Shown one piece after another: positions 760 through 59,973 of a DNA stretch of 64,000 nt. Source of the stretch: Mrakia gelida (lineage: Eukaryota > Basidiomycota > Tremellomycetes > Cystofilobasidiales > Mrakiaceae). The stretch lies in the NCBI GenBank assembly GCA_024345305.1, contig BRON01000001.1, positions 744,001 through 808,000 on the forward strand, written 5' to 3'. The position numbers and the translations under genes were made by a program. Below the pieces are notes generated by a model, which saw only the letters and a list, made by a program, of their open reading frames with translations, was not told the origin of the DNA and did no database searches. Position 1 is the stretch's first letter, and each line of letters opens with the position of its first letter.

Positions 760-3700
760 ATGGCTCACACCAATATCTTTGTCGCTCCTGCTCCTCCCCT
801 TCCTGGACCAGCTCATACGACTGATGCTGAGGAAATCGTCAAGGCCCTCAAGTCCAACGTTCGTCTCGGTCTCTCGGATGCCAAAGCGCTCGAGCTCAAG
901 GGAATTTACGGTCTCAACCAGATCAAACCTCCTGAGAAGCCATCAGTGAGTTCACCTTCCCCTAGCTGGTCGTTCCTTGGTCTCGTACGAGCGAGCGAGC
1001 TCGTCGAGAAGGAGGGAGGGGCCGGCTGCAGCGAAAGCGAGCTGACTTTGATCTTCCTCCTCCTCGTCTTCTATCTCAGCCTTGGAAACTTCTCGGTCGT
1101 CAAGTCGCCAACGCTATGACGTGAGATCTTACCTTCCCAGCTCTCGCGTAGAGTCAACAAGTGACTGATGATATCCTTCTTTCTCTCCCTCAGCGTCGTT
1201 CTTCTCGCCTGCATGGCCGTCTCTGTTCGTCTGCTCTTCCCTCCTTCCCTCCGATTCGATCGAACCCATGCTCACGCCTCCCTCTCTCGCTTTATCTACT
1301 CAGTTCGGAACTCAAGACTGGATTGAAGCGGGAGTCATCTTCGCTCTCGTCGTCCTCAACGTCTCAGGCGAGTACCGTCGATCTACTCCGCGTCGCTTCG
1401 TTGTTTGGCTGACCTGCTCACTCCCTCTCTCTTCCTGGATCTCGCAGTTGGATTCTTCCAAGAGTGGAAAGCAGAGAAGACAGTCGCTGCTCTCGCCTCC
1501 GTCGGATCTCCCACTGCTACAGTCATTCGTCACGACGCTGCCGGCAAGGCTGGGAGCGATGGAATCACGTCGACGATTGAGGTTGAGGACGTCGTCCCGT
1601 GAGTTCCTTGCTTCTTCTCCTCAACCGTGCTGCGAACTGACCAGAAACCCCGTCTTTCTCTTCACCAGCGGAGACATCATCCTCCTCAGCAACGGAGACG
1701 TTGTCCCAGCCGACGCTCGAATCATCCCCGACTACATCTCCGCTCTCGAAACCGACGAGGCTCTCCTCACTGGAGAATCGCTCCCCGTCTCGAAAAAGAC
1801 TGCTCTTCTTACTGAGGTTGAGTGCCCTGTCGGAGATAAGAAGAACATGGTCAGTCTGCTCTGGGCTCCCTCTTTTTCGTCGCGTGGAAAGGAAGCTGAC
1901 GACCCTCGTTTTCATTCGTTCGACGCGTCTAGGTCTTCGCCGGATCTCAAGTCACCAAGGGTCGAGCTCGCTGCATCGTCGTCGCCACTGGAATGGGAAC
2001 CGAGCTTGGGAAGATCGCCGAGGCGATGGAGAGGAAGGAGGTCATCAAAATTACTGGATTCCGAGCCAAATGGTACAAGTTCAAGGTCATTCTCGGAGTT
2101 GCAGGAACCACACCTCTTCAGATCAAGCTCAACACTCTCGCCTACATCCTCCTCGGAATCGCTCTTCTCCTCGCCTTCGTTGTGGTAGCTTCTACTGCCT
2201 TCACGGACGTGCCCATGTCCAGTTCGTTTCAACTCCTCCCTTTCTCGAACTCTCGACTTCTTTGCTGACCCATCTCTGCTCTTCCTCTTCTTTCAGTGGC
2301 TACCTACGCCGTCGCTACCGCCGTCTCGATCCTTCCCACCTCTCTCATCGCCGTCGTCTCGCTTACACTCGCCACCGCTTCTCGAGAGCTCGCCTCGAAG
2401 AACGCCCTCGTTCGACGAATGGATGCCATCGAGTCGCTTTCGGTCGTGACCGACATCTGTTCAGATAAGACGGGTACGATTACTGTTGGGAAGATGGGTG
2501 AGTGCTCTTATAAAGTCCGCGAGTCGAAGGGATCGTGCGAGTCGTCCGCGTCGCGTTCTCGGCGAGCTGACCCTCACGCTTCGCCTCCGTTCTTTCTTCG
2601 CAGTCGTCAAGAAGGCTTGGATCCCGGTCTCTACGGCCTTCCCTACCCAGGAACGAGCTGCTCAGATCGACATCGTTCGAGGACAGGCCTATGCTGCCGA
2701 GTCGGGTTCTGAGTCAGTTCTTCCTCCATCCCTCCTCCTCTCTTCTTGCGAGACGCGTCCTCCTTTCCCCGTTCACTCGTCTGACTCTGAGCCTCCTTCC
2801 TCTTTTCCAGCCCCTTCTACCCTCGAGGAACCGTTCGAGCTCTCACTCAGTCTCGAATCCCCGGTCGAACTCAAACCACCGACTCCGGAATCACCACTCT
2901 CTCGACGACTTCCGAGGAGCAAGAAGAGGAAGACGACATCAGCTCGGAGGACGTCATCCGACCCAGCGAGATGGAGGACGCGTTCAGGAACCTGGTCCTC
3001 TGCTCCAGTCTCTGCAACATGGCTACGATCCACAAGGGGAAGGAGGATCGATGGGAGGCTGCTGGAGACGCGACTGGTTCGTTCGACTCTCTCTTCGTTC
3101 TTACCCACTCGCTGACCTCTCGTTCGTCTTTATCTTCTTTTCAACAGAAATCGCTCTTCAGGTCTTCGCTCACAAGCTCGGTTACGGAAAGCCCCATCTC
3201 ACCCACCCCAAGAAGAGGTCCGCTGTCGGTGGAGATCACCTCGCCGCCGTCGAGACTCGAACGAGCGAGAACGGAGGAGCCAAGAAGATCGCTATGGACG
3301 GACACTACGAGATGGTTGTCGAGCACCCCTTCGACTCCTCGGTCAAGAGGATGAGCACTGTGAGTAGAAACCCTCCTTTCCCTCCATCCTCGAATCGTCA
3401 AGCTGACTCCCTTCCCCTTTCTCGTTTCGCAGGTCTGGAAGTACGAGGACTCCCAAGCCGCCGAGAAGGCCGACATGCTGGTCTTCATGAAGGGAGCCGT
3501 CGAGCGAATCCTCGACCGGTGCTCGTTCGTCGGACTCAGCCCGGATACTCAAGTCAAGATCGACGACGAGAAACGAGAGGAGATCATCGCTCGAATGGAC
3601 ACGCTCGCTGCCGAAGGCCTTCGAGTCCTCGGTCTCGGAGCTCGGGTCATGCCTCGAGAGATGGAGGACGAGGTCAGGGAGATGAAGCGAGATAATCTCG

Positions 3701-5878
3701 AGAAGGAGTTCTGCTTCTTGGGTCTCGTCGGAATCTAGTGAGTTCGAGTCTTGTTTCGCGTCGAATCGAGAAAGCACGAGACTGACGAACGACTCCCTTC
3801 TATCTTCGACTCTCAGCGATCCTCCTCGACCTCAGTCTCGTGGAGCCGTCCTCGAGAGTCAGCAAGCTGGATTGACCGTTCGAATGCTCACTGGAGATCG
3901 TGAGTCTTTGATCCTTCGACCTGCTCGCTACCTCGATCTTCTCTCAAACTGACCTTCCCCTTCCCTCTACTCCATCCAGACCCCGCTACCGCCGCCGCCA
4001 TCTCCCTCTCCGTTGGAATCCTCGACGCTCAAGCTCCAGCTGGAGCTGTGATGACCGGAATGCAGTTCGACGCTCTCACCGAGGAAGAGATCGACGCTCT
4101 TCCTTCCCTCCCTATCGTCGTCGCTCGATGTGCTCCCGAGACCAAGGTCCGAATGGTCGAGGCTATCCATCGAAGGAACATCGAGGGTATGCGCTGCAGC
4201 TCTGTGATGACCGGTTCGTACCTTTTCCGAGCCATCCCTCGCCTCGAGCGATCACCTTTCTCGTCGAGTCGAGCTCATCTTCAATCCTCGCGTGTACTGA
4301 CTCTCCTCTTCCTTTCTTCAATCATAGGTGACGGAGTGAACGACTGCCCTGCTCTCAAGCGAGCTGATATCGGTTTCGCCATGGGCCAGAACGGATCCGA
4401 CGTCGCGAAGGGTGAGTTGGTTCGACGCGTCGAAAGCACAAGTTGGAACTCTCGCTGATCCTGCTGCCTCCTCTCCTCAGGTGCCGCCGATATTGTCCTC
4501 GCCGATGATAACTTCGTGAGTGGATACTCTCTCGTCGCCTCCAGTCTCCGAGCGAGAAAGATCGTGAGATGAACCGCGTCGAACTGACAACTTCTCTTCC
4601 CCTTCTTCCAGGCTACCATCACTCGAGCTATCAAGAAGGGACGAGGAGTGTTGATGAACCTCCAGAAGTTCTTGCTCTTCCTTCTCTCCGGTAACATCGC
4701 CGAGGTGGTCGTTCTCGGTGAGTCTCGCTTTTTGCTTCGCCTCGCCCCTCTTCATTCGAAAGCTCGAAGCTGATCAGCCTTTCCTCCTCGTTCGTTCGTA
4801 GTCGTCGGACTCGCTTTCAAGGATCGCGATGGATACTCCGTCTACCCTATCAACCCCGTCACCGCTCTCTTCGGTGAGTGCTGCTCTCTCGCTTTGCTCG
4901 AACGCGTTTTCAATCGCAATTCGAGGCTCACGCGTCTCGTCTTCGTCGCTTCTTTTCCTCCTTCAGTCAACACCATCGCCGCTGGACCTCCTGCGCTCGC
5001 TCTCGGACTTGAGCAGACTGCTTCCGATGCCATGTTCAAGGGACCTACCTCGTTCAGGACCATCTTCACCCTTGGATGGTGGGCCGAGTGAGTTCAAACC
5101 TCGACGCGTCTGCTCGTTTGCTCCTAGCTCACCCTCTTCCCCTCTTCTTTTCCCCCTCTTTCTCGCCATTTCCCCCCTCTCTCTCAGCCTGTTCTTCTAC
5201 GGTTTCCTCATGGGAAGTCTCACGATCCTCAACTTCGTCATCGTCGTCTTCGCCACCAACATCGTTGGAGAGAAGGGAGACCTTGGATTTGGATGCAACG
5301 ACGGAGGCTATGAGCCTAGGTGCGAAAACGTATACCGCGGTCGAGCCACTGGTTTCGCTACCTTAACTCTCGTTATCATGCTTCACGCCTGTGAGTAGCC
5401 GGCGTCCACCGCTTTCTTCTGGCTCTTCTTTCGCGCCTCGAGCTCACTTTTCGTTCCCTCTTTCTTCGTTCGTTTTCAGTCGAGTGCAAGCATCTCGAGC
5501 GAAGCATCTTCCACATGAACCTCCTGGACAACAAGATCCTCCTGTGGTCGTCCGGAATCTGTGCTCTCTCGGTCTTCCCTATCATCTACATCCCCGTCAT
5601 CTCCGACTACGGTGAGCCTCTCTCTCCCCCGTCTGTCGAATCGAGTCGACGCTGAGCTCTCTTCTCCTTTCTTTCCTTTCCTTTCAGTCTTCCAACTCAC
5701 CGGCATCGGGTGGGAGTGGGGACTCGTTGCCGCCGCCGTCCTCGTTCACCTCGCCTCGACCGAGCTCTGGAAGTGCGGACGACGATTCGCCAGCCGCAAG
5801 AACAACGGAGGAGGAAAGGTCGTGACGGAGAAGAACCTCCCTCGATTCGACACCGCCAACGAGGGAGAGAAGTTCTGA
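760..5878 (+). CDS. ENA1: ENA-type (P-type IID) Na+/K+ efflux ATPase, about 18 exons
   Basis: This is a plasma-membrane P-type ATPase that should export Na+ or K+ using ATP. Exons visible include 760-945, 1080-1120, 1194-1224, 1304-1367, 1448-1598, 1669-1849, 1933-2221 and 2297-2497, continuing to the TGA at 5876-5878. The start ATG at 760 follows a CT-rich leader. The spliced protein shows the actuator loop LLTGES, the phosphorylation motif CSDKTGTIT near 2457-2480, the nucleotide-domain motif FMKGAVERIL, the hinge GDGVNDCPALKRADIGFAMG near 4330, and paired C-terminal membrane helices. The combination SDKTGTIT...GKM...KAWIP and the absence of a long N-terminal extension point to the fungal ENA family rather than PMR1 or PMA1. 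The intron after 1367 starts with GC instead of GT. An acidic stretch rich in Glu and Asp lies before MEDAFRNLVLCSS (around 2920-3020). Ion preference cannot be told from sequence. Confidence 0.93.
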
Positions 5879-6256
5879 CTCGAGCTGTCTCTTTCTCGCA
5901 TCTGTACATCACCATCCACCTTCTTAAATAGGCGTTTATCTCGCTCTTCCACTGTATTTATCCTCCCACCTTCATCTCCTCCTTTGTACCTTTCCTTTCC
6001 GCGTCGCTCTCGTTTACTACCCGAGTACGTGTTATCTCGTTTGCTTCTGACCTCGAAGTATAGATATGCTTGTTCGAACCACTGGGCTCGCTCTTTCGCT
6101 TGAAGGTGAGGAAGATGAGCGGAAAAGGAAACAGACAGTCTCGACGTTGAGCCACGAGCGTTCGATTGACGCGTCGCTCACAACGCGTTCCTCTCTCATG
6201 CCTATACACTGCTAAACACGAGGTAACGCAGCCGAGGAGTGTCTTATCTATACCTG
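5879..6256. other. Convergent 3' region between ENA ATPase and the next minus-strand gene
   Basis: This interval separates two genes that converge, so it should hold both 3' untranslated ends. No coding sequence is supported. One copy of the GACGCGTC palindrome lies at 6168-6175. Confidence 0.4.
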
Positions 6257-6919
6257 CTAGCTACTCCTTCCGCCTCGTCCCCTACAAGCTCTTCCTCCTC
6301 CGCCAGCAGGCGCTCCTCCTCGGCGGCTCTCCCTCTCTTCGACCCTTCCTCCAGGGGCGCAATGGTAGCTGAACCGATTCGAAGAGAACCAGAAGTACGT
6401 CCGAGTTAGCTCGTATCCAAAACCTCTCCAGAGTAGCGAGCTCGAACCAGAGACGAGAGATTCACCAAGGCAGAGGATCGCGGTCAGAACGACCACCACC
6501 GGGGCCATACTCAACGCGAGCCATCCGTCTCCCCCTCCGCCAAAGAACATAACCTGGCCAATCCCTAGCCCATCGAACTCTGCAACTCTACAGAGCGTGT
6601 GAGCTTGATACCACCCTTCCGACGGCTTGGGAGTGACGACGTTTCGCCGAACAAAGAAAGGGAGGAGCAGCTTGGAGTTGATGAGGACGGAGAGGGGGAA
6701 GTAGAAGATCCAGAACAAGCCTGAGATGCGAGAGAAGGTTGGATCGTCGGTTTCGATGAAGATGTTGGGGAGGAGGAGGGTGTAAGGGATGAGGGAGGTG
6801 AGGAAGAGGTAGGGGAGGAGGGTGCGAAGGGGAGAGGGGGATGAGGGGGAGGAGGAGCGGAAGAGGGAGTGGAAGGTTCGGGTGAGGATGTTGGTGGTGA
6901 TTCTGCTGGAGGAGGTCAT
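6257..6919 (-). CDS. Orphan multi-pass membrane protein, 220 aa, intronless
   Basis: I do not recognise the family. The single open frame starts at an ATG at 6919-6917, directly preceded on the minus strand by a long CT-rich leader like those of confirmed genes here, and stops at 6257. Predicted hydrophobic segments are around residues 33-51, 64-85 and 130-150 (LALSMAPVVVVLTAILCLG). The N-terminus is Ser/Thr/Arg-rich and the C-terminus ends in a low-complexity Gly/Arg-rich tail, so that tail may not be under strong constraint. The gene converges with the ENA ATPase. A missed upstream exon is possible. Confidence 0.55.
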   Translation of the reverse strand: MTSSSRITTNILTRTFHSLFRSSSPSSPSPLRTLLPYLFLTSLIPYTLLLPNIFIETDDPTFSRISGLFWIFYFPLSVLINSKLLLPFFVRRNVVTPKPSEGWYQAHTLCRVAEFDGLGIGQVMFFGGGGDGWLALSMAPVVVVLTAILCLGESLVSGSSSLLWRGFGYELTRTYFWFSSNRFSYHCAPGGRVEERESRRGGAPAGGGGRACRGRGGRSS

Positions 6920-7862
6920 CCAGGCGGAGGTGGACTCAAGTCGAAGGAAGGTGGTGGGTGGTGGAGGGAGGGAAGGAAGAGAAAGGGAGCATGAGGAAGG
7001 GCGAGGTCGAAGGAGGAACTCCGACGGATGGTGAGTCGCGCTCGTCTATTTTGGCTCGTCCGTCATCCAAAAGTCGAAGAAGCTGGTTTGAAGGAGAGAA
7101 GTGGATCTGGAGGACTGAAAGGTGATATCTCCTGGGGCCGAGACAGACGAGGGAGAGAGATAGGGAGGTCGAGCGTGTCAGGATCGAGACGGCGAAGCTG
7201 CTCGAGAAGTCGAAGATCTGGACTGTACCGACCGAGAGTCCACAGCGAAGAGCTGTACGGAGATAATCGAGGGAAGCGCCTGCAGCAGCACGAGGAGAGC
7301 GAGTTCATCCGAGAGCGAAAGCTGGAGGAGGAGGAGGCGGAGGGGAGAGGGCAAGGAGGGAGGGAGCCTGGAGGAAAGATGTTGACCTCGCCGTGTTCCC
7401 TTCCCCGTCCTGCGAGAAAAGTGGTTGCGAGCGATCAAGATTCAAGAGAGTGAGGCAGAGCACGGACGAGCTCAATACGAGAATGAGTCTGAAGAAAATC
7501 TTGCGCAGGCTGCGTCGGCGTTGAGGTCGAGAACGAGGGAGGAAGCGTCGAGCTCACCCGAAACACCTCCACCGACCTCCTCCCTCAGTCCTCCTCCTCC
7601 TCCCAGCTTCCAGGTCGCGTTGACTCTACACAGCCGAGAGTTACTTGAGAAACCTTTCACCTTTCCACTCTAGCTCCAGGAACGCTTCTGCTTTTCAATT
7701 TGCTGTTTTGCTTCAGGACCAGCTCGTCGGACCTGATCGAAACGAGCCCTGAGTCTACTTCTTTCCTCAAGAGCCGCTTCCTTCACTACTCTCTCTCCTT
7801 CACTCCCAACAACATCCTTCACCCTTCCCACTTTACGAACTCACCTTCCCTGCTCATCCGCT
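6920..7862. other. Intergenic region with unresolved coding potential
   Basis: From 6920 to about 7030 the minus strand is CT-rich and is probably the leader of the gene at 6257-6919. Between about 7390 and 7611 the plus strand reads as an Ala/Glu-rich helical stretch (REKWLRAIKIQESEAEHG and onward) ending in a Pro/Ser run and a possible donor after 7611. I could not connect it to a start codon or to the exon at 7863, and a purine-rich strand will read as charged helix by chance, so I do not call a gene. Confidence 0.3.
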
Positions 7863-9284
7863 ATGTATACCTCCTGCATCCTCCCTCGACTTGTGGGAGC
7901 CCTCCTTCGACGGACTACGACCTCCTCTCCCTCTCCCCAACCTTCTTCCATCCTCGCTTCCCCTCCCTCCGACTTCTACCTCCAGCAGGCTGCTTACCAC
8001 TTCCCCTCCACCTCGACCCTTCGCCACTCGCCCTCACATCCTCCTTCTCCCTTCGTATGGAGAGTAGACTCCCTCGGAAGCTTCGTTAAAGCCGGAAACA
8101 ACCTCGTTCCTCTCCTCAACCTCCTTCTCGGTTTGGTCGTCTTCTTCGTTCTCGTGGATGACAGGTGAGTTCGAGCAAAGTGTGCTTTGAGTCGAAGAAG
8201 ACAGCTGGAAAGGGATGCAACAAAGCTGGTTGCTGGGAGAAGGAAGGGAAGGGCGTTCGGATGAGCTCTCCTCGGCTCGTTCCTGATCAAGAAGCTCACC
8301 TCGTCCGTTTCCTCCCTCTTCGCATCAGGGCCGACAACATCCTCAGCAACTGGTGCAACTCGCCCTCCTCCCTTCCTATCGACCCTCCCTCTCATCAATC
8401 TCATTCTGGCGACGTCAAAGGTCGCTCTTCCGCCCTCGTCGACGTCTCCCAGCTCGACGAGAAGGTCGACTCCCTCGCCGCTCCGACTCAACCTCAAAAA
8501 CGATCTCGGAAGTTCACCTCAGTCTTCGAGGAAGCCCTCCTCCTCACCATCATCGTCTCAGTAATGCTCTCGATGATCTTCGTGTGAGTCCAAGCGCCTT
8601 CTTCACCTCGTCGTGATCTCTCTCTCCGTCTCCGGCTGAATCCGTCGACGCGTCGCTTGAGCTGACCTCTGCCTTGCTTCCCTTTCCTCGTCCACTCACT
8701 CTGCTCCAGATCCAACTCGGTCTTCGACAACTTCGCCATGCACCTCCCTCCAACCATCGATCTCACCCTCCTTCTCCCTCTCGCCGCCCACTTCGCCTCC
8801 TTCACCTTGCTCGTCCTTTTCCTCCTCGTACGTCCCCCGCTCTCCCTCGGCTCGAACCCCTCCTCGTCGATCCTTTCCTCTCCTGTCGTTGTTCACGTGA
8901 CTGATCTCCTCTCGCTCCACTCTTCGTTCATTCATTCCCCTCGTCCGACCGAACAGTCCTCCCTCCTCTTCATCCTCCTCTCATCCCTCCTCAGCACCTG
9001 CAACCGGTCAAGAACCTCTCCAGCAGCTCCTCCCTCTTTACTCTCTGATCTCCATCATGTCCCTCGTGCTCCTCGCGACGACAGGTCTCTCCCGCTTCCC
9101 TCTCGCCATCGTCACCCTCCTTCGACCCTCGTTCTCGACGGCGAACTTCGATCTCCCTCACCTCGCGCTGCTCGTTCTGGAACCGGGAACGTTGGTTCTG
9201 CTGGGTGCGTGGGTGGCGTGGAGGTCGAAGGTGGAGGTGAAGGACATGAGACGAGGTATGAGGAGAGGAGAGGAGGTTGTTTGA
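7863..9284 (+). CDS. Orphan multi-pass membrane protein (about five helices), spliced
   Basis: No family is recognised. The ATG at 7863 opens exon 1 (7863-8164), which joins exon 2 (8329-8583) and exon 3 (8710-8827) through GTGAGT donors and CAG acceptors with consistent phases. The last exon ends at the TGA 9282-9284. Hydrophobic stretches are LVPLLNLLLGLVVFFVLV (exon 1), LLLTIIVSVMLSMIFV (exon 2), LTLLLPLAAHFASFTLLVLF (exon 3), and two more in the last exon, including LALLVLEPGTLVLLGAWVAW. The end of intron 3 is uncertain: an acceptor at about 8957 has a good branch site but the wrong frame, while one near 9021 keeps the frame that encodes the last helices. The first 60 residues are Ser/Pro-rich, so an upstream start cannot be excluded. 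Confidence 0.6.
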
Positions 9285-9671
9285 GACGCGTCGAGCCTTG
9301 CCTCTTTCGTCGTTTTGCTTTGGTTTCGTTTCGTTTCTCGTCTTAATCTTGTACTACATACGTGCGCATGGTTTTGCATCCGAATTAGAAGCGGTAGTAT
9401 ATATATGCACGCTCCTGTCTGAGCCGTTCGTTCTCGAAAACGTTGACCCTCTCGAAATGAAGTGCGACGAGGAAGGGCGAAGAACGAGGTCCGTCGTCTT
9501 CGTTCACAGCTCTCCGGCCCTCTTTCGTCCAACCGATCTCGATCTACGCAAGATCATCAGATCAATATCGACCGCGAGCACAAACCCAAAACACAAGAGA
9601 AACAAAAGCAAAGCGAACCGAAACGAAAGCATCTAAAAAACAAAGTCACCCAAACCTCCTCCTCAAGGTCA

Positions 9672-15048: not shown

Positions 15049-15283
15049 TTTTGAGAAACCCGTTTCTCTCGTTGGTTTGGTTCCGAGCTCGATATGGATG
15101 TGTTGTAGCCCGTGTTTGAGATCCTCCCTCCCTATCCTGACCTCTTGATCTTCTTGCACTCTCACTTCCGCCCACTGAAAAGACGCGGAAGAAAAACATA
15201 TCGATTCGCGTCTCTCGTTTCCCTCCTTTCCAGCCCAGCTGGAGACTACACAGGACGATTACAACACGCGAAGCGAACAGTGT

Positions 15284-49054: not shown

Positions 49055-52000
49055 ATGAACGAAAATCAGAACAGGCTCGCGACGCGTCTCAATCGAACTC
49101 TCCCCACCGTCTCTCCTTCCCATCGCTCTCCGGTCCCTGGATTCAGTCTCAGACCAACTCCCTCACCTCAGGTTTCTCTCGAGACCCTGAGACTTTTTTT
49201 TTTCGCTGTAATTGGAAGTTCTGTTTCAGACGGATGATGAGGACTACGCGCTTCCTCAACGTGGCCAGGCGAGGCGAGCTCCTTCCTCTCTCTTCCCAAC
49301 GGCTTCCTTCTCTTTCCTTCCCCCCTTCCCTCCCCAAATGCCCTCTCCGATCCAGATCAGCACACCTACCTACTCCCCTGCTCCTTTCATCGACGATGCC
49401 ACCGGGATGTCTCAATCTATGAGCCATATGGCTTCAGGAGGAGGAATGAGGTCGCCAACTTCCCCTCGGCCTTCGTTCCTTCCCTCGTTCAGTGAGTCCC
49501 ATTCCTCCCTCCCTCCGAGTCTTCGTCCCTTTCTCAGGTAATTGACTCCGTCTATACGTTTCTTTCCCTCCAGTGCGACGACCTCGAGCTGCTACGAGCG
49601 ACTCCATGTCTCGCCCTCCTTCTCACCAGCTCGAGTCTTCCTCTGGCGTCGCTCCGTCATCTTCTTCGTCGCACCCTTCTTCGTTCCACTTCAACAACGG
49701 AGGTCCTCCCTCACCTCAACCCATCCCTTCATCATCAGAATCATTGCAATCCCCTTCAACTCCTCCTCCGAACCATCCGCCATCCAGTTCTACGAACAAC
49801 AACAGGAGGAGGACGACTACCAACTCGCCCGGCGGAGGAGGAGGAGGTCTCCCTTCGCCTCCCCTCTCTTCTTCTCACCAGCAGGATCCTCTCGCCGGAT
49901 TCGGACATCGTCTGCTTCGAAGGATCTCCAACCAGGGAGGCTCGTCGAGCGCAGGAGGAGCTGGTTCCGCTACTAGTTTGAGACCTACATCGGCGGGAGC
50001 GGGAGGAGGAGGAGGAAGAAGCTCGAGCACTCCGCCTGCGCCGTCCCACGCTTTCGGCCTTCACCAACGACCAGAGCAGGAAGGACTAGAGCTACAGAGG
50101 GAAACTCCTAGAGGAGAACATGCTCGTGAGTTCCTACGTCTTCTCGTTGCCCGTTCGGAGCTGGGCCGATCAAGCGAAGGGGAAGGGAGGGGACGTCCAA
50201 AAACGAGGTCCTCCCCTCCCAAGGGAAGAGCTCGAGCGACGATCGACCTCAACCGAAGCGATATCGTTTTGATCTCTCTTTGAGCTGATTTTGCTTCCTC
50301 CTTTCCTCTTTCTTGCCCATCCCACAGCTACCTCGACCATCATCATCACCAACCCATCCAACCCCATCCCCTCCTCTCCCTTCAACTCCGTTCCTTTCGT
50401 CCTCTCCCCTGGCGCCGAGTCCGACCCTGTTCCCGCATCCCAAGCCTCCCTCCTCCCTCCTACCACTCCCAACGTCAACCTCACCACCTCCTCCCCGTCC
50501 AGCTCAGGCTCAGGCTCAGGATCCACCGCTATCCATCGACTTCGACTGGTTCCTCTCCTCGACGCTTCCCACTCCCTCCCTTTCGACCCTGTCGTTCGAG
50601 ACGTTCGCGAATCACCTGGAGACTCGCCTTCCTCGTCCTCGGACGTGTTCGCTCTCAAGATTGGAAGGTTCACCGACAAGCAGAGTGGAGCAGATGGAAC
50701 TCCTCGAGGTGGTGCGCTGAACAGCACGAAGGTCGCGTTCAAGAGCAAGGTCGTGAGCAGGTGTCATGCTGAGGTTTGGGCTCAGGCTGGCGGGAAGGTG
50801 AGTACTTTCTCGTCACTTCTCTCTGTTGATCTCGTGGAGTTCTGGGTCAGACGTAGGAAGGACGTCGTAGAATCTGAGGAGCTGGTGGTGGTGCTGGAAC
50901 GAACAGCTCGTCTCTTCGTTCGACCTTCGCTGACTTGCTCTCTTTCGTTCGGTTTCTCAGTTCTTCGTGAAGGACACCAAGTCTTCGTCCGGGACCTTCC
51001 TCAACCACATCCGACTCTCTCCTCCGAGCGTAGAGTCCAAGCCTTTCGCTATCAAGGTAAGCCGCCTCTCCCTCATCGTTCTTGCTAAGGAATCCGTCCC
51101 TTCGTCGACCCACCTCGCTCGAGGCGGCCGCGTCGAGGTCGCGGTTCGATTCTCGTCAGCCCGCTGACCTTCCCTCTCCTCTCTCCTTCCCCTTTTCCTC
51201 GCCCTTTGACTTCGGCTCTACCAGGACGGAGACGTGATTCAGCTCGGAGTCGACTACCAAGGAGGAACGGAGGAGATCTACCGATGCGTCAAGATGAAGG
51301 TCGAGCTCGGTCGAGGTTGGCAGAGCGGAGCGAACACGTTCAAGTGAGTTCTTTTCCTCGTCTTCTCGCATCTCTTGGTGTTCGAAGAACCGTCTCTCGC
51401 CGTCTCGAACTGGTGGAGAGAGTGAAGAAAGAGATTCGAAGAGCTCTGCACCAACACTGACGCGTCGCCTCTCGCTTTTGGTTTGCGTTTCGTTCGTTCA
51501 GCACCAACGCTCTCAAGCAGCTCAACGCTCTTCGAGGGGACGAGAGCTCGCTCGAGGCTGGACCTGGGAAGGAGAAGGCTAAGAAGATCAAGGCCAACGT
51601 GACGGATTGTGTGATCTGTGAGTCGATTTCCCTTTGATCAGTCCTCGTCAACGAGCTCGCGTCGAAACGAGATCCTGACCGCTTCCTTTCCTTCTCACTT
51701 TTTCTAGGCTTGTTCTCGGTCACCATCTGCCAGAGCTTGTTCATCGCGTGAGTCCTATCTCTCTCGCTCTTTCACACTCCTTGCTTGCCTCCTTCGTTCT
51801 CCGTCGCTGACCTCGTTTTGCCTCAACTCTGCCTTTTAGTCCCTGCTCCCACGTCGTTCGTCCTCGATCCCAGACTCCTCATCTTCTCTTCTCCCTTCGT
51901 CGTCTGACCTTCTGCTTTCTTCTCCTCTTACCCACAGTTCCACTACAAATGCATTCGACCTCTCCTCTCCCTCCACCACCCAGGCTTCTCCTGCCCCGTC

Positions 52001-52840
52001 TGCCGCTCCTTCGCCGATCTCGAGGCCGACGTGGAAACCGACGACGTCTACGAAACCTCCTCTCGACGGGAATCCCTCATCTCTCGCAAAGGATCCCTCA
52101 AGTCCGTCCGACAAGCCTTCGAACAAGCTCTCGGATCAGCTCTTCACGCCTCTGAGGTCGACGACGCAGACAACGACGACGACGAGGAGGAAGGTCAGGG
52201 CCACCACAACCCCGAACTCAGTCGCAGCGGTCTCCGACCTTTCGGATCACCAGTCGGAGCAGCCTCGAGGTTGGCAGCCGAGGAAGGCTCGCGACCGGAA
52301 TCGTCAGGTCGACCAGAGACAGCCGTCGCTCAGCCTCGAACGGCAGATCTGGGTTACTCTCCCTCGGCTGGATTTGGAGAGAGGTTGGCGGAGGCTTCGA
52401 CGGCGGAGGAGTTCGCTGGAGTCATCAGTGGAGGAGGAGGATCGAGACCCATCCCGGAGCGAAACGAGACGCTCTCAAACGACAACGACGAGGAGGACGT
52501 CCACGCCGAGATCGGAGGAGGAATCTCGACCAGCTCCCACCCTACCCTCACCGCCTTCCCCTCATCCACTTCGTCTCTCGGTCTCGGAGCTGCTCGCGTC
52601 GAGTCCCCGTCGGGAGGAGCAGACCACGAGGAAGGGACTCGTCGCGTCTCGTTCGAGGAGGAACTCGCTGGATCAGGTCTTCTCGGACGAGTCGAGGAGT
52701 TGGACACCATCAGCGAGGGAGGAGTGGTCGTCGAAGGTGGAGAGGGGATGGTCAGGAGTGTGAAGGAGGGTGCTGGAGAGCCAGTCGCTCTGGGGGAGGA
52801 CGGCGAGGGAAGCACCGGAGGGAGCTCGTCGGGAGTTTGA
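49055..52840 (+). CDS. DMA1: FHA-RING E3 ubiquitin ligase, Dma1/Dma2-type
   Basis: Dma-type ligases act in mitotic checkpoint, septation and spindle-position control, binding phosphothreonine through FHA and ubiquitinating through RING. I place the start at the ATG 49055 with moderate confidence. The N-terminal 350 residues are Ser/Pro/Gly-rich. The FHA domain spans about 50650-51340: ALKIGRFTDK, FKSKVVSRCHAEVW and FFVKDTKSSSGTFLNHIRLS, with the phosphopeptide-binding Arg, Ser, Arg-His and Asn residues present. The RING reads DCVICLFSVTICQSLFIAPC, SHVFHYKCIRPLL and FSCPVCRSFADLEADVE. One coding exon inside the RING is only 16 nt (51840-51855) and supplies PCSHV. The C-terminal 260 residues are acidic and Ser-rich, ending GGSSSGV with TGA at 52840. 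Family identity is clear. Confidence 0.9.
51840..51855 (+). other. 16-nt microexon encoding the RING CSH core
   Basis: Joining ...ATCGC (before the GTGAGT donor at 51748) to this exon and then to TTCCACTAC at 51938 rebuilds IAPCSHVFHYKC in frame. Without it the RING would lose a zinc-binding Cys and His. It is flanked by TTTTAG and by a GTTCGT donor. Confidence 0.8.
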
Positions 52841-53428
52841 GCTTTCCTCTTCTCTTTCTTTTCGCTCTCTTGCATTTCTTCCTCTCTCCTCTTCCCTTCG
52901 TCCGTTCCCTCTCATGCTTGTATACCTGTCACAACTAGATGTCTTTCTTACTCTCTCGCGTTTCTACTCTCTCACACGACCTCGTCCTTTTGTTCAATAC
53001 GCGTCGTTCGCGTCTGCCATTTCTCGCTTTCTCTAACTCTACGTGCTACCTTGCTCCTGCTCGTCTCTATCCTACGCTACGCTACGCTACATATCGTCTT
53101 TTACTCTGGATGCTCGACCCTTGCTTCCCTTCTCGACGATGGCCAACGAAAGATCGACGCGGCCGTCGCTCACAGGACAGCTTGTTCGTGAGTGTGTCGT
53201 TCTTGGCCTCCGCTCGAGCGCGGCTGTAGAAGCTGATCCTTCTCTCTTACCTCATCTTTGCTCTGTCAAGAAGGGAAGAAAACGAGCGAGAGGTCGAGTC
53301 ACAGAAGAACGAAGGAGCGCTCGGGGTCTCCTCCGACGATTCGATTTCGATTCGAAGAAGCTTGACTCAGGAAGGCTTCCTCCCTCCGACTACATCTCTC
53401 TCTCTTTTTTTCAAGCAAATCTCCCAAG
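52841..53428. other. Intergenic: DMA1 3' end and BCAT leader, with CTACG repeat
   Basis: No gene is supported. A tandem CTACG repeat (just under four copies) is at 53072-53090. An ATG at 53139 opens a short frame upstream of the aminotransferase start; it could belong to the 5' leader, or to an alternative N-terminus if joined by splicing, which I could not confirm. Confidence 0.4.
53072..53090 (+). repeat. (CTACG)n short tandem repeat
   Basis: Nearly four copies of CTACG lie between DMA1 and the aminotransferase gene. No function is implied. Confidence 0.8.
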
Positions 53429-55625
53429 ATGACCGTCGTTCCTACTCCCTCCCTCGCTCCTCTTGACGTGAGTCAAAATCGACGTACTGCAGCTCGTCGA
53501 AGGGGATGGGAACGAAGGTCGAGCTCGAGGCTGAAACGAATCCCTCCTTCCTTTCTTCCTGGCTCTGTTCCTTTTGCTACGAACAGCCCTCCAAGCTCAT
53601 CATCAACCTCACCGACAAGCCCAGCACGCTCACAACGCCGAAACCTTTCGGATCTGGTTTCGTGAGTCTTCGGTTTCGCTTTGCGCTTCGAGAAAAAAAG
53701 GGATTGGGGAAGAATGAAGACGCCGAGCTCACCTCTTTTCCCCATCCCTTCTTCGTCGCAGACCGACCGTTCGTGCCGTCCCCCAGCTCTTTCCTCGACC
53801 AACTCTGACCCCGATCTTTCCTTCGTGTTTGCGCAGACATGTTGACGGCCAAGTTCGTCCCAGGATTCGGTTGGGAAGCTCCAAAGATTGGGCCTCTCGA
53901 AAACCTCTCCCTTCATCCTGCGTCCTCCGTTCTTCACTACGCTCCTGCCTGCTTCGAGGGTGAGCACTACCCGCTTTTTGGATACCAGAGAACGTGTGCT
54001 GACGTTATGTCCGTCGCCATGGTTCGCTTTTGCAGGAATGAAGGCCTACAAGACCGCTGAGGGCGGGGCTCGTCTCTTCCGACCTATCGAGAACGCTATC
54101 AGGCTGAATCGGTGCGTTTATCTGCTTTCTGTAGAGTCTTCGAAGGCCTTACGACCCTCGCATGGACTGATACTCGCTCTCTTCCTCCGATGGATAGGTC
54201 TGCTGCGAGGGTTGGACTGCCTGTTCGTCTCGTTCTCTTCTTTCTTCACGACGCGTCGTCGAGCTCCTCGCATCTTCCTCGCTCGTGAACTGACTCTGAA
54301 TCGGCTCTTCTTCCTTCCTCTACCTCCGCTCTGCTCAACTCTAGCAATTCGACCCCGAAGCCTTCGTCTCTGTCCTTCAAACGCTCGTCAAGATCGATTC
54401 GCATCTCATTCCCTCGGACCCTGGATGCCTCTACCTCAGGCCTACGATGATCGGAACCGCTCCTCAACTCGCCATCGACGTGGACGAGTCGTGTACCTTG
54501 TTCGTCATGTGAGTCTGCGTTTCGCTCTGTTCTGCCTGTCTGTCTTGGGAAGGCGCGTTTGCTGACTTCTCTCCTTCTCGCTTCGCTTCGCGCGTTGACA
54601 GCCTGAGCCCCGTCGGACCTCTCTTCAACCCTGGATCCAAGGGTATCTCCATCCTCGCCAACCTGGATACTGTCAGAGCGTGGCCTGGAGGAACAGGAGA
54701 TCACAAGGTTCGTTGTCGTTCGAGAGACTTGTTCGTTCTGCGCGACCCCGACGAGAGCTGACGGATGTCCCCTTCTCTTCGTCCCTCAGCTCGCCGGTAA
54801 CTACGCGCCTGCCTTCCTTCCTCAGCAGAAGGCAAAGGAGCTGGGATACAACCAGAATCTGTGGTGCTTTGAGAATCTGGCTCAGGAGTGTGGTGGCATG
54901 AATCTGTTCGTCGTTGTCAAGTCCGAGGTCGGAGGTGAGTCGCGTCTCGCTCTCGATCTTGCTTCGACGGTTCCAGAGCCCCGTTTTCCCATCCTTGATG
55001 CTGATTCCCAATTCCCTACCCCATCCCGTCCTTTGAACAGTTACTCGACTCCTCACACCTCCTCTGAACGGGCAAATTCTCCCCGGAATCACTCGAGACT
55101 CGCTCCTCAGACTCACTCGAGCCCACATCGCAGGAGAGATCGTCATAGAAGGGCTTCCTACGTCGAACTTCGCCGTCGAGGAGCGAGAGTTTACCCTGCA
55201 GGATTTGAGGCTGTGGTCGGATCAGGGACGACTTCTAGAGTGTTTCGGAGCTGGAACTGCCGTCTGTGAGTTTCGCGTTCTTTCGTCTCTTGCCAGCTTC
55301 GAGAAAGCTTTCCCACTGACTTCGACTCTGCTTTCTATACTCAGTGATCACTCCCGTTGGACGGTGAGTTCCTCGTAGGCCGATCGCAAGCTCGTACGCG
55401 TCCCTTGAACTGACTTTCGTCCCGTCGTCGATTCTTTCGCGTCTCTTTCGTCTCTTCGACAGAATCGGTATCCCTGCACCCTCTGGAGAGATCGAGGACA
55501 TCACTGTCGCTACTGCTCTCGACACTGGGATTGGTGCTGTCACCAAAGCCTTGCTGGACCAGGTCAGTGGCATCCAGCAGGGACGACGCGCTGGTCCCAA
55601 AGGCTGGTCTGTCCTTTGCCAGTAG
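53429..55625 (+). CDS. BAT1: Branched-chain amino acid aminotransferase, class IV PLP, about 12 exons
   Basis: The enzyme interconverts Leu, Ile and Val with their keto acids using pyridoxal phosphate. The ATG at 53429 gives [13 protein letters not shown]; no clear mitochondrial presequence follows, so this form may be cytosolic. In order the spliced protein shows [90 protein letters not shown] and [20 protein letters not shown], in which the Lys is the PLP-binding residue. [17 protein letters not shown] follows, and the protein ends GWSVLCQ at the TAG 55623-55625. One exon is 7 nt (53762-53768) and another 25 nt (54198-54222). All conserved landmarks are present. Confidence 0.93.
53762..53768 (+). 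other. 7-nt microexon completing TDHM in the aminotransferase
   Basis: The exon ACCGACC, between a CGTCGCAG acceptor and a GTTCGT donor, joins to ACATGTTGAC at 53837 to give T-D-H-M-L, the conserved stretch of fungal branched-chain aminotransferases. Skipping it breaks the frame at once (TGT TGA). Confidence 0.75.
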
Positions 55626-56582
55626 CCTGTGAGGTTGTAGACTAGCACTTGGATAAAAACGTGTACGAGATCTACTGGAAGATTCATGTCGGAGCTGCTC
55701 CTTTCGTCTCGACTCAGCTTGCTGCTCGAGTTGAATCGAAAAAAAGAGGCGCGTCGCGACCTCGAACTCGATCAAGCCGAGTCGGTGCCGCGAAACTTCT
55801 CGATCTTGCAAACTCCTCTTCTGTTTGTGTCTCCACAGCGTCAATGGTGACGATTCCGAGCTAGCGCATCGGTCAAATAAAGCTGGAAACGGCGCGTCGA
55901 TCCAAGTTCCGTCGTCTTCCTCCCTCCCTTTTTGGTCCTTTTTTCCTTCTCGAACAGCGACAGATGAGCTTCAAAATGACGTACATCGCCTCTGAGAAGT
56001 GTGCTCTCGGCTGAGCCTCATCGTCGAAGCTTTGACAGACATTTCAAGCTGAAAAGCACCGAGAGGCAGCATCAAAGGGAACGCGAGGGAAGGAAGATCA
56101 GCCGAAACTCGCAGCCAAATTTGCGAAGAGCATTCTATCTCTCTGCAGGGGTGACTCCCATACCTCGGTTTCCATCTACTACTCCATAAGGATAGACACG
56201 AGGAAGGGAGGAGAAGAGGAGGACAGGGCGGGGTGGGCGAGGCTCAGCGCGAGACGCGCCGCCCAAACCTCCAAGAGAAGTTAGGGATGAAAGGGAAGTA
56301 CGAATATCTCAGGCTTTTAGCAGTCTCTGTACATCATGGAGCACCTGTCCCCTAATCCAGGAGCAGCAAAGCATTCAGGAACGCTTGGGGAAAGAACATC
56401 GACTCGAAGGCCGCGACGAGGAAGTGACAGGCTGGCCTTTGCATCTCGCTGTCAGTTTATTTTTTTAGACTGTTCAGGGACGCCCTCGAAGATCCTAGAG
56501 GTTCGTTCATTAAGTTTTATCGGAACCTGTTGCTCGATGCGAGCCGAGAGAAACGAAGGAGACGCAGGCTTCTTCTTCTGAA
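55626..56582. other. About 1 kb without a recognisable gene
   Basis: Short frames are present on both strands but none has a supported start, splice pattern or family resemblance. The base composition is less GC-rich than the neighbouring genes. It should contain the aminotransferase 3' end and the promoter of the HMG-box gene. Confidence 0.4.
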
Positions 56583-59273
56583 CACGACCTATTCCCCCTT
56601 TTCTCCTTCAACCACCACCATCAACAGTCCCAACAAAACGCGTTATCCCTTCCCTTTCCCTCCCTCGTAGCCTTGAAAGGTCTGAACCACCTCGGATCCC
56701 GCCCACAGACGGCCTTCGCTTCAACGCTCTTCCGTCGACAGGAGCATCGCCGTCTCAAGTTCAATCGACACCACCAGCTTCCACAGCTCTTCCACCAGTT
56801 TTCTCGTCTCGAGAGCACCGAGATGAGCTAGCATCGCAGCTAGGTGAGGTGAGTATCATCTAATTTCCCATCGCAAGGTCGTGTTTGACGTCGAAGAGAA
56901 CACCGAGAGCTCACCTCCTCCTCTCTGTCCTTCCCTTTCTTTCCTCTTCCTTCCATTTTCCCAAATCGAACTCCATCAGGTCGACCACATCACTAGTGAA
57001 ACTTTCGTCTCTACTTCTTCATCCCTCGGCCACCGTCCTCCTCCCCTTCGACCCTCATTCGAACCCTCGTCCTCGTCGAACCGGACGGTCCATCCGTCGT
57101 CGTCGAACTCCCCCACCTCCCCTCACCAGCACCCCTTCCCCTCGCACGCAATCTCTACATCCTTTCCTTCGCGAGAAGGCGGAGAACGATTCGCTTCGGG
57201 CTTCGAGGTCTATTCTGCTGCTCCCTACGGCCTCGACCAACTTGAATCCAACCCCTCCCACCCTCCTCCGCCGCTTCACACCTACTCCTCCCCTCGTCTC
57301 GACTACCCCGACCTTCAGAACCATGGCCAACTCCCTTCCTCCCACTCTTCCCTCTCATCTCCTCGCTCGCCTCATTCGTACTCCTACGCGTCAAGACCGC
57401 CGATGCCCTCGCGATCGAAAACGACGGACAGTGTCAGTCGACCCAGATCCTCGCCAAATCCGTCCTCCACCTCCCACACCTCCTCTTCGGCCATTCGAAG
57501 AGGACGGTCCTCCTCTACCTCGTACAATCAAGCCGTCTTCACTCCACCATACCATCCTTCGCACCCCTTAGCGTCGTCGTCGGCCTCGACTTCGCATCCT
57601 GCTCGACCCTCTTCTTCGCCCAACCCAGCCACCACCACCTCCTCCTTCTTCCTCCAAGAACCTTCGACCAACGTCCTCACTTCTCCCCAGCCTCCTCTCC
57701 ATGCTCCCCGACCTCCCAACTCTTGGATCCTGTATCGTTCTGACACAATACGGAAGATGCGAGACGCGAAGGCTCGAGGAGAAGAGTTTCCGAGTGGGAA
57801 CTGGGACGAGTCGTCGATGGGTGCTGCAGCTGAGGGAGCGTCGCTTTCGCCGCGGCAGGGAGATGTTGGAAGGATGATTGGGGCGCTGTGAATTCGAACG
57901 AGAGCAAGGAGGTCAGGACGAGGTATGGCGAACTGAGCTTGACGAAGAAAGAAGAGGTTCGTCGTCCTTTTTTCGTTCACCCATCGCGCTCCTTCTTCTC
58001 CCTTCACGACAGGCTGATACCTATCGACTTTCCCATCTTCGAACAGCACGCTCGTCTCTATCCCAACTACAAGTATCAACCTCAGAGGAGGAACCCAAAC
58101 GTCGCCACCAATTTTGGTTCGCCCTTTCCCACCAGCAGACCATTCCCTCCTCCTTCGCTCTCCGAGACGGTCACCACTCCCGTCCCCGACATCCTCGCGG
58201 CCTCTTCTTCGTCCTTGACTACATCTCAACTCTCTTTTGCGCACGGGAAGGTCGGAAACAAGGAACCTCGAGCTCGAAACTTGCCTTACGCTCGGGCGGA
58301 GTCGTCGATGCAGCCTCAACCAATGGATACGTCTCTTCTTGTGCAGGGTTGGGACGGCTCAGACCCATACAGGTCGGAGGTAAGTCTTCCCTTCCATCCT
58401 GTTCTCTCGTCAAGTCGCACTCCGAGGTCGAAAGACGCGTCGCAACTTGAGCTGACCGTCGTGCGTTCTCTCTCGCTCGTCCTCTGCTCCTCCTCCCCTC
58501 AGAATCACCACCAACAATCTCAAGCCATCTACGACTACCAGTCAACTCACTCGCCCATCTACTCCAACCAACCCTACGAGGACGCCTACATCCCTCCCGC
58601 CTCAGGTCTCCTCCCCTCCAACTACCTCCCCTCTTCCTCCTCCTCCTCTTCCTCCTACGACTTCGCTCAACCTCTGCCCACAACCTACGACCTCTCCGTC
58701 TACGACAGCTACCCTCATCCTTCCTCATCCCACTACACCCCCTACGACCACTACCGCCACAACACCGGTGAATCGTCAACAACCACAACCACAACCACAA
58801 CAACCTCCTCTTCCTCCTCGTACCATCTTCCCTCCCCACTCTACCCTCCCTCTCCCGCCGGTCTCAACTCCCCTCTCGGTCCCAACGAGGACGCACAAGA
58901 CCCAAGCGACTACGCTGCAGCCTGGAGTCTTCTCGAAGAGGACCTCGTTAACCAACCAAGCGAGGACGCGTCGACGTCGTGGGTCGAGGGGACTTGGGAT
59001 TTGGTTGAGGAGGGAGGACGAGGAAGAAGTGCGGAGACGTCGATTCAGGGAGAAGGGAGGAGACCGAGTCAGTTGACGATGGGGGAGTTGGTGAGGGCGA
59101 GGTGGGAACAGGATCGAGCGAGGTATCGAGGAACTGAGGGAGGAGGAGATCAGGTCGAGGAGGAGGAACGACGCGACGAGGGCGGGGAGGGAGAGAATCC
59201 AGGTCGGCAGTTTGGAGGAGGCGGAGAAGGAGCGCAGGGAGGAGCTGAAGCAGGCTGGAGGTGGGGGTGGTAG
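56583..59273 (+). CDS. HMG-box (MATA_HMG-type) transcription factor with apparent 1-nt frameshift
   Basis: The product should be a nuclear DNA-binding regulator. A Ser/Pro-rich N-terminus precedes the box, which begins RPPNSWILYRSDTIRKMRDA near 57710. It contains a Gly/Ser/Ala insertion, then QGDVGRMIGAL, and continues in another frame as NSNESKEVRTRYGELSLTKK followed, after an intron (donor near 57957), by HARLYPNYKYQPQRR. The frame breaks at about 57889-57891: in phase the first frame hits TGA, while one extra G would give the expected Leu-Trp-Asn. The C-terminal region (58381-59273) is rich in Tyr, Ser, Thr and Pro, with a polythreonine run from an ACA/ACC repeat at about 58780. The first exon ends near 56849 (DELASQLGE) but its ATG was not found; 56583 marks only the open frame. 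Coordinates of the start are therefore provisional. Confidence 0.7.
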
Positions 59274-59973
59274 AGGAGGAATCGTGGAGGGACGAGTTTG
59301 GAGAAGACGAGGAGACGGGAGGGAGGGAGATCGGTTGGAGAGAGGCAAGCAGATCAAGGGATCTTGGGGTCGCACTTCACTTCTTAGATTGGTTTCTTGG
59401 TGTTTATTCATACCTGTAGTATCGCTCTTCGGAGTGATCTAGGTCTCGCGCGAAAACTGGCCGAACGAACAGCGACGCGTCGTCGTCGGTCCAGAAACGA
59501 GAGGAGCGGGAAGGGAGATCTAAACGAGTCTAGTAGTAGAGCTGCGGAGACTCCCCGATTCAGTCGGTGAGCTCGTGTCACCGAGTAAGCGGGTTCTGAA
59601 TGGGGCTGCTGATAAGACAAGAAGGGATCGACGGGAGGCGAGAAAGGGACGAACGAGCGAGAAGAAGGGACGAAGACCAGGGTCTGCCCCGTCCTCTCCT
59701 CTTTCTGTGCAATTTTTGACCTTTGAGCGGAAGGAGGGAGGTTCGCAGCTTCCTAGCAGGAAAAGGAGAGATAATGAAAACTGACGCGTTCATTATGGAC
59801 GGACGGCCGAGGGAGTCGCCCCCTCCGAGGCTCCAAAGCGAGTGCCGCTCTCCTTCCGTCCTCCACTTTCGCTGCTAGTTTGAACCTCAACGGCGACGTC
59901 CTCCCCCCATCCAGCTCCTTCGGGTTCTTACCTTCGCACCTCACTCTCCCGACCTCCAACCAACACCCACATC
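59274..59973. other. Intergenic region downstream of the HMG-box gene
   Basis: No gene is supported. One GACGCGTC palindrome is at 59474-59481. The last 100 bases are CT-rich ahead of the ATG at 59974. Confidence 0.4.

Follow-up and report, generated by a model that had tools for sequence, protein, structure and literature searches.

A palindromic octamer repeated throughout the genome of Mrakia gelida

The stretch of DNA that we analysed, hereafter called the window, comprises 64 kb from the basidiomycete yeast Mrakia gelida (G000:C1:744001-808000). It contains the gene for a P-type Na+/K+ efflux ATPase (760-5878), together with many other predicted genes and 34 copies of the palindromic octamer GACGCGTC. 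The best matches of the ATPase are in Mrakia frigida (92% over 80% of the query, and 83% over 86%), and it matches Phaffia rhodozyma at 67% over 99%. The genome consists of 34,857,517 bp in 25 contigs, and it is the only one considered here. All the results that depend on annotation rest on a 264-kb sample, which is one stretch of one contig formed by the window and the adjoining next 200 kb.

The original prediction had put the number of copies of GACGCGTC in the window at 34, against roughly two expected by chance. We confirmed the count, and Markov models of orders 0, 1, 2 and 3 gave expectations of 1.48, 1.98, 2.13 and 3.5 copies, respectively. The G+C content is 55.9% in the window rather than about 58% as first thought, and 55.7% in the 264-kb sample; for another strain of M. 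gelida, passages of PMC12749792 give 55.8%. GACGCGTC is the top-ranking palindromic octamer in the window, where the runner-up, CGAGCTCG, has 19 copies. Genome-wide there are 15,647 copies, or one per 2.2 kb, whereas the reversed word (the same letters backwards) occurs 87 times.

In the noncoding DNA of the 264-kb sample, GACGCGTC is present 118 times against 6.5 expected, an 18-fold excess under an order-3 noncoding model with the motif masked. We scored its one-letter variants against an order-3 noncoding model with both orientations pooled, and found that only two of them reach 4-fold enrichment: AACGCGTC (4.1-fold), which differs from GACGCGTC at position 1, and GTCGCGTC (4.4-fold), which differs at position 2. 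The variants CACGCGTC, GGCGCGTC, TACGCGTC and GACCCGTC are at 1.7-2.3-fold and GACACGTC is at 1.1-fold, while GCCGCGTC, GAAGCGTC, GAGGCGTC, GATGCGTC and GACTCGTC are at 0.4-0.7 of expectation. Six of the variants alter the third or fourth letter; four of these are at 0.4-0.7, and the other two are at 1.1 and 1.7. On the outward flanks of GACGCGTC, G is favoured (62%), followed by T (23%), and each side is independent of the other. Some copies had been seen to extend to longer palindromes, and these do exist–four sites in the window are perfect 14-bp palindromes and another is a 12-mer (Table 1)–but flank symmetry is not above chance, with the first base matching at 45 of 118 noncoding sites compared to 52.7 expected. 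We rejected the extended palindrome of 12-14 bp as the unit because this symmetry is no greater than base preference predicts.

Several other words are also enriched in the noncoding DNA of the sample: CCCCCCCC (89 copies, 5.9 expected), AGGTCAGC/GCTGACCT (90 copies, 8.3 expected), whose context we read as that of the branch site, and GAACTCAC (55 copies, 6.9 expected), whose context we read as the complement of the splice donor.

GACGCGTC is in excess in introns, intergenic DNA and exons, and is sparse around gene starts

Genes were predicted with a small gene finder that was self-trained on the 264 kb and whose content scores were made neutral over the motif. The ATPase gene served as a check of the models, and Pfam matches were found in three of three spliced proteins but in none of three single-ORF (open reading frame) translations. 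The sample has 131 predicted genes with 647 introns, and divides into 127.2 kb of exons, 66.4 kb of introns and 70.4 kb of intergenic DNA, the last of which includes the untranslated regions. Within the window, 22 of the 34 sites are in predicted introns, 10 are between genes and 2 are in exons. Since introns make up only 16.6 of the 64 kb, the observation that about two thirds of the copies lie in a minor fraction of the DNA was accurate. The 139 sites of the whole sample comprise 78 in introns, 40 in intergenic DNA, 19 in exons and 2 that span a boundary, corresponding to densities of 1.17 per kb in introns, 0.57 in intergenic DNA and 0.15 in exons.

To obtain expectations for each compartment we used order-2 and order-3 models trained within that compartment, with the motif left in. 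The order-2 expectations are 3.9 copies in introns, 2.0 in intergenic DNA and 3.2 in exons, so the excess is about 20-, 20- and 6-fold; for order 3 they are 7.6, 4.9 and 4.8, and the excess is about 10-, 8- and 4-fold. In 200 synonymous-codon shuffles of the exons the number of copies was 3.0 +- 1.6 with a maximum of 8, compared to the 19 observed. An excess in all three compartments points to a pressure that acts on DNA generally and is not specific to introns. Judging by the compartment counts, the apparent preference for introns probably arises mainly because coding sequence tolerates GACGCGTC less.

It had been suggested that the palindrome might be a splicing element or the seed of an RNA structure in introns. 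The majority of sites are indeed in predicted introns, in the window as in the larger sample, and the 78 intronic sites are in 78 of the 647 introns, none of which has two. However, the enrichment of introns over their own composition, although real, is matched between genes, is accompanied by an excess in exons, and leaves 569 introns without a site. First introns contain a site in only 5 of 116 cases, as against 73 of 531 later introns (p = 0.004). The sites had also been placed between the splice donor and the sequence CTGAC; there is a slight tendency of this kind, with 63 of the 78 intronic sites upstream of the branch site, but random placement would put 70% there (p = 0.047), so the preference is weak and close to chance. 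Exonic and intergenic sites, moreover, lie on the same lattice as intronic ones (see below). Given the compartment-specific expectations and the shared lattice, we rejected an intron-specific function, and we consider a role in splicing or intron RNA very improbable.

Sites are sparse around the starts of genes. In introns downstream of their nearest ATG, there are 8 sites in the 17.4 kb within 600 bp of it and 55 sites in the 35.5 kb beyond (p = 0.0004; this test excluded 11 sites in 12.0 kb whose nearest ATG is downstream). Intergenic sites number 4 in 21.0 kb between divergent genes, 27 in 37.3 kb between tandem genes and 9 in 10.9 kb between convergent genes. In noncoding DNA upstream of ATGs there are 4 sites in 15.5 kb at 0-200 bp and 28 sites in 38.4 kb at 200-1000 bp, so the thinning upstream of genes is short. 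The remark in the original prediction that the location of the sites is unlike that of promoter MCB elements is consistent with this distribution.

Distances between sites are quantised in steps of about 171 bp

We counted pairs of sites in the whole genome by their start-to-start distance in windows of 31 bp, each of which should by simple arithmetic contain about 218 pairs if the 15,647 sites were scattered uniformly. The counts alternate between crests and troughs. There are crests at 150-180 bp (641 pairs), 318-348 bp (606 pairs) and 477-507 bp (602 pairs), and troughs at 68-98 bp (35 pairs, 10 of them belonging to a single repeat, as recognised by eye), 230-260 bp (28 pairs) and 400-430 bp (46 pairs, some of them repeat copies). 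The interval 119-149 bp has 211 pairs. The first crest is broad–among the matches listed, 25 distances in the 150-180 bp window are spread evenly between 151 and 177 bp.

A set of 239 sites, comprising the 139 in the 264-kb sample and 100 among the genome-wide matches listed, has distances that cluster near 150, 325, 495, 660 and 830 bp, and less sharply up to about 1350 bp, with gaps between the clusters. The best period for this set is 172-174 bp. Phasing is stronger at distances of 100-700 bp (R = 0.64) than at 700-1400 bp (R = 0.35); 173 bp fits best in both ranges, and beyond 1400 bp nothing clear is seen in the spacing of these 239 sites. When sites in the 264-kb sample were moved within 2 kb, staying in the same kind of compartment, the observed power was not reached in any of 2000 shuffles. 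The control words GGAGGAGG, CTGACC and CTCACC have R values of only 0.07-0.09 at 172 bp in the same sample. With the period set to 171 bp, the offset of the distances is about -14 bp; by calculation, which is not a test, 147-bp nucleosomes and 24-bp linkers packed against 8-bp sites would give an offset near -16 bp, and in the fit a change in the period can be compensated by a change in the shift.

We also considered even spacing. The coefficient of variation (CV) of the spacing is 0.66 in the window (p = 0.007), but it is 0.95 in the 264-kb sample and 1.11 for the 100 listed genome sites, and we rejected this pattern: the spacing is quantised, not even.

Two other palindromes that are common in the 264-kb sample, CGAGCTCG and GCTCGAGC, share the phase of GACGCGTC in part (R = 0.25 and 0.40), and CGACGACG keeps phase with its own copies (R = 0.52).

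Could GACGCGTC have been left behind by a mobile element or by tandem repeats? One repeat family does contribute out-of-phase pairs, namely the 10 recognised in the 68-98 bp trough. However, at the 139 sites of the sample there is no clear target-site duplication (equal flanking 4-mers occur at 2 sites against 0.64 expected, and equal 5-mers at 1 against 0.17), for which we rejected a mobile-element footprint. Among the matches listed at 150-180 and 318-348 bp, the sequence between paired sites varies from pair to pair. We therefore regard an origin in mobile or tandemly repeated DNA as extremely unlikely. Copies of the repeat family itself are at G000:C22:10005-13048 and 223632-228113, C5:10563 and C23:40823. 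It has in part a step of 509 bp (about 3 x 170), one copy runs into TTAGGG repeats, and its pairs of GACGCGTC are 85 bp apart (76 bp on C23).

Table 1. Sites of GACGCGTC and other features of the window. Distances are from the preceding site unless another is named; repeats are steps of the lattice.
Feature	Position	Strand	Location and remarks
GACGCGTC	1922..1929		predicted intron
GACGCGTC	2752..2759		predicted intron; 830 bp, about 5 repeats
GACGCGTC	4424..4431		predicted intron; 14-bp palindrome
GACGCGTC	5103..5110		predicted intron; 679 bp from 4424, about 4 repeats
GACGCGTC	6168..6175		between predicted genes; 1065 bp (from 5103), 6.3 repeats, off lattice
GACGCGTC	8647..8654		predicted intron
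GACGCGTC	9285..9292		between predicted genes; 638 bp, 3.8 repeats
GACGCGTC	10681..10688		between predicted genes; 1396 bp, 8.3 repeats
GACGCGTC	13828..13835		predicted intron
GACGCGTC	14671..14678		predicted intron; 843 bp, about 5 repeats
GACGCGTC	16162..16169		predicted intron
GACGCGTC	18169..18176		between predicted genes
GACGCGTC	19592..19599		predicted intron
GACGCGTC	20427..20434		predicted intron; 14-bp palindrome; 835 bp, about 5 repeats
GACGCGTC	22066..22073		predicted intron; 14-bp palindrome
GACGCGTC	23416..23423		predicted intron; 1350 bp, about 8 repeats
GACGCGTC	24844..24851		between predicted genes
GACGCGTC	25328..25335		between predicted genes; 484 bp, about 3 repeats
GACGCGTC	29532..29539		predicted intron
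GACGCGTC	33792..33799		predicted intron; 14-bp palindrome
GACGCGTC	34309..34316		predicted intron; 517 bp, about 3 repeats
GACGCGTC	35051..35058		predicted intron; 742 bp (from 34309), 4.4 repeats, off lattice
GACGCGTC	35958..35965		predicted intron; 907 bp (from 35051), 5.4 repeats, off lattice
GACGCGTC	39151..39158		predicted intron
GACGCGTC	42586..42593		predicted exon
GACGCGTC	44161..44168		predicted intron
GACGCGTC	46371..46378		between predicted genes
GACGCGTC	48769..48776		between predicted genes
GACGCGTC	49081..49088		between predicted genes; 312 bp, about 2 repeats
GACGCGTC	51459..51466		predicted intron
GACGCGTC	54250..54257		predicted intron; 12-bp palindrome
GACGCGTC	58434..58441		predicted intron
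GACGCGTC	58965..58972		predicted exon; 531 bp, 3.2 repeats
GACGCGTC	59474..59481		between predicted genes; 509 bp, about 3 repeats
~170-bp compositional wave, with CpG in phase with the sites and TpA in antiphase	1..64000		seen in the 264 kb whose first 64 kb are the window, and genome-wide
P-type Na+/K+ efflux ATPase gene	760..5878	+	21 predicted introns; gene-model check

The sites lie on the crests of a CpG/TpA wave

The DNA around the sites has a periodic composition. Outside the motif, the CpG frequency ranges from ~0.060 to 0.095 per base and is highest at about 160, 335, 505 and 680 bp from a site. TpA varies in the opposite direction (~0.008-0.032 per base) and is 3-4 times higher in the troughs, and the change in GpC is small (0.044-0.060). 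In the 264-kb sample TG+CA is in antiphase to CG at ~170 bp, and their sum is near-constant at 0.16-0.18 per base; G+C content is slightly higher on the crests. Spectra of the sample have a peak at 170 bp for CG (2.54, compared to 0.7-0.8 at 110 and 210-220 bp) and for TA (3.0, compared to about 1 to 1.2). Smaller peaks occur for AT (1.8), GG (2.9 vs 2.0) and G+C content (1.1 vs 0.6), and no comparable peak for the dinucleotide GC (1.0 vs 0.7-1.0). The CG peak is present in each compartment taken alone, at 1.5 in exons, 2.3 in introns and 2.4 in intergenic DNA. The wave extends genome-wide: there are 25,732 pairs of CGCG at 152-182 bp but 11,302 at 234-264 bp, whereas the corresponding numbers for the control GCGC are 3,023 and 2,517.

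We then located the sites on a wave computed from CG and TA with the motif and its flanks masked. The crest half of this wave holds 124 of the 139 sites in the sample (R = 0.68, with a mean offset of 1 bp), including 70 of the 78 in introns, 36 of the 40 in intergenic DNA and 17 of the 19 in exons. The result is similar with a wave computed from CG only (115 of 139) or from TA only (118 of 139), and disappears with a control wave based on GpC, whose crest half holds 72 of the 139 sites (R = 0.09). The strength of the wave is about equal at the distances from ATGs considered above (1.75-2.19).

Motif-free introns also tend towards crests, with 367 of 569 in the crest half and R = 0.10 when they are phased on motifs. 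This looks as if exons might sit on nucleosomes, but we place no weight on it because intron composition can contribute to the wave and the labelling of introns by itself gives some power near 170 bp. ATGs tend towards the CpG-poor, TpA-rich troughs: in the 84 predicted genes of at least 150 amino acids, 30 start codons are in the crest half (p about 0.01). If crests are linkers, start codons would be on nucleosome cores.

A probable nucleosome lattice and its putative reader

We consider it probable that GACGCGTC is a highly iterated palindrome locked to the nucleosome repeat, in which the ~171-bp lattice is the array, the crest is the linker, and the word is a target of a putative sequence-specific protein. 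The period of ~171 bp is near the usual nucleosome spacing and its coherence fades after about eight repeats, which suggests arrays of nucleosomes, and we know of no other genome-wide structure of this size. The CpG-rich, TpA-poor crests would then be linker DNA and the CpG-poor, TpA-rich troughs nucleosome cores. The palindrome, placed mostly on crests and mainly in gene bodies and downstream of them, would be kept because it is recognised in linkers, at a distance from gene starts, by a putative protein that binds or modifies DNA. The suggestion in the original prediction that a DNA-acting factor recognises the word thus survives, but through a lattice in all three compartments that had not been foreseen. 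The order Cystofilobasidiales has more histone genes than other fungi according to passages of PMC12749792, so chromatin may be unusual in the group generally, which fits this interpretation but proves nothing here.

Several observations weigh against it. The period and the antiphase TpA stand in for nucleosomes, the gene models are self-trained predictions, and the reader of the word remains putative. Not all neighbouring sites follow the lattice; those at 34309, 35051 and 35958 are among the exceptions. The number of genes that lack a site is about that expected by chance (34 of 84, compared to 37.9), for which reason we also rejected a rule of one site per gene. The wave is no weaker at a distance from the motif: its strength is 2.05 at 142 places that have no motif within 1.2 kb and 1.88 at 178 places close to one. 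The motif therefore does not create the wave, and we rejected the idea that it is the anchor from which the wave arises. Lastly, the 10-bp rotational signature that nucleosome cores should show is weak when anchored on the motif, with null runs as large in 6 of 150 cases for A/T steps and 22 of 150 for G/C steps. When phased on CpG it is not significant for A/T steps (26 of 200 in noncoding DNA and 32 of 200 in all DNA) or for G/C steps (177 of 200 and 35 of 200, respectively).

The weakness of this rotational signature bears on the polarity of the lattice, which we read from sequence alone. If the polarity were reversed, the crests and the motif would be on nucleosome cores instead of linkers. 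Against this, the troughs are TpA-rich and have a weak 10-bp A/T-step signal in one of the two tests, and it seems easier for accessible DNA to keep the target of a protein. We find a reversed polarity quite improbable.

The independence of the wave from the motif fits a different explanation, in which biased mutation or repair in the accessible DNA that separates nucleosomes gives rise to the palindrome as a by-product, and the word itself has no function. Passages of PMC4390886 describe such a model for the highly iterated palindromes (HIPs) of cyanobacteria. The antiphase of CG and TG+CA with a constant sum also looks like a gain of CpG on the crests or a loss of CpG in the troughs. However, by our estimate the exact octamer is some 11- to 18-fold in excess, which composition alone does not yield, and a by-product leaves the thinning of sites just after ATGs unexplained, since the wave is about as strong there. 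We judge this explanation unlikely. Composition alone appears to account neither for the specificity of GACGCGTC nor for its position, whereas a putative protein that reads or modifies the word in linkers would explain both its specificity and its avoidance of gene starts.

If the word is read by an enzyme, a cytosine methyltransferase is one candidate. The crests could be CG-methylated linkers like those of some algae, with GACGCGTC as the preferred substrate and methylation repelling nucleosomes, a logic on the scale of the nucleosome that is shared with the algal linker methylation described in passages of PMC9246332 and PMC5728721. An exon-by-exon search of the genome, which can miss genes, gave a single match to a C5-cytosine methyltransferase (PF00145; L029 148-4713 on G000:C10), with a predicted protein of 898 amino acids encoded by 22 exons. 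It is distant from its relatives (25-33% identity over 20 matches, and 27-31% in an alignment), and in its motif IV, SCPPWS, the catalytic cysteine aligns with that of PPCQ in the relatives. However, Pfam found only the methylase domain in this gene model and no SNF2 domain, unlike Dnmt5. CpG has no overall excess, with a CG density of 0.070-0.080 by compartment and an observed/expected ratio of about 1 by arithmetic, and it is the troughs, not the crests, that are richer in TG+CA. We are doubtful of methylated linkers for these reasons. The genome also has one weak match, with an internal stop, to the KilA-N domain of MBF-type proteins. Neither the methyltransferase nor the KilA-N candidate is tied to GACGCGTC by evidence.

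The degree to which sequence dictates the positions of nucleosomes in vivo is a long-standing question. A bolder form of the interpretation, to which we lean only tentatively and with somewhat less than even confidence, is that M. gelida has a DNA-encoded nucleosome lattice in which ~15,600 palindromes mark linkers at a phase of ~171 bp, mainly in gene bodies and beyond, and are read by a dedicated linker-binding or linker-modifying protein. If this is true, much of the nucleosome map would be predictable from sequence. One word that is mostly at one phase of a lattice extending over tens of Mb would point to a new linker protein or base modification.

Comparison with known systems

The element MCB, ACGCGT, is bound by MBF. 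GACGCGTC contains this core, but unlike MCB it is genome-wide, thin around gene starts and present at about two copies per gene, taking the 8,918 genes given for another strain in passages of PMC12749792. It lacks the promoter concentration of MCB, being sparser in divergent intergenic regions than in tandem or convergent ones.

A closer resemblance is to HIP1 (GCGATCGC) of cyanobacteria, which passages of PMC4390886 describe as one palindromic octamer far above expectation genome-wide in both coding and noncoding DNA. HIP1 occurs about once per kb there, compared to the one per 2.2 kb of GACGCGTC. GACGCGTC shares with HIPs a gross genome-wide excess and a presence in coding DNA beyond codon constraint; as for the methyltransferase of HIPs, which is cognate to an inner sequence of the word, the genome of M. 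gelida has only the one candidate match. It differs from HIP1 in being a different word, with a CGCG core, in a eukaryote, and in its ~171-bp lattice. Among the titles and opening lines of abstracts listed in the literature searched, we found none on the subject of GACGCGTC, those on highly iterated palindromes concerned only cyanobacteria or other bacteria, and we found no report of a pattern like this lattice.

Passages of PMC9246332 and PMC5728721 describe CG methylation confined to linkers in algae such as Emiliania and Micromonas. As in these genomes, CpG in M. gelida is periodic across the genome at a nucleosome-like spacing. Huff and Zilberman reportedly found in 2014 that algal CG frequency is well above expectation. 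M. gelida differs in that its CpG is not in overall excess, in that our exon-by-exon genome search, which can miss genes, found no Dnmt5, and in its dominant palindrome, none having been seen in the description of the algal system in those passages (PMC9246332, PMC5728721).

N6-methyladenine (6mA) is found in linkers in early-diverging fungi and in Tetrahymena, according to PMC13297926 and PMC6245762, respectively. By analogy, GACGCGTC may be comparable to this mark of fungi and protists that avoids nucleosome cores, if the crests are linkers. It differs in that 6mA is ApT-based and located around transcription starts, whereas GACGCGTC lacks ApT and is scarce near starts. The passages of PMC13297926, a review of fungal methylation, describe no such pattern in basidiomycetes.

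As far as these passages show, neither HIP1 nor algal linker methylation has a single palindrome locked to the phase of the nucleosome. The purpose of the iterated palindromes in cyanobacteria is still under debate, and a lattice encoded in this way would be their counterpart in a eukaryote. Each half of the pattern has a precedent, the iterated palindrome in one system and CpG on the scale of the nucleosome in the other; their combination appears to be new.

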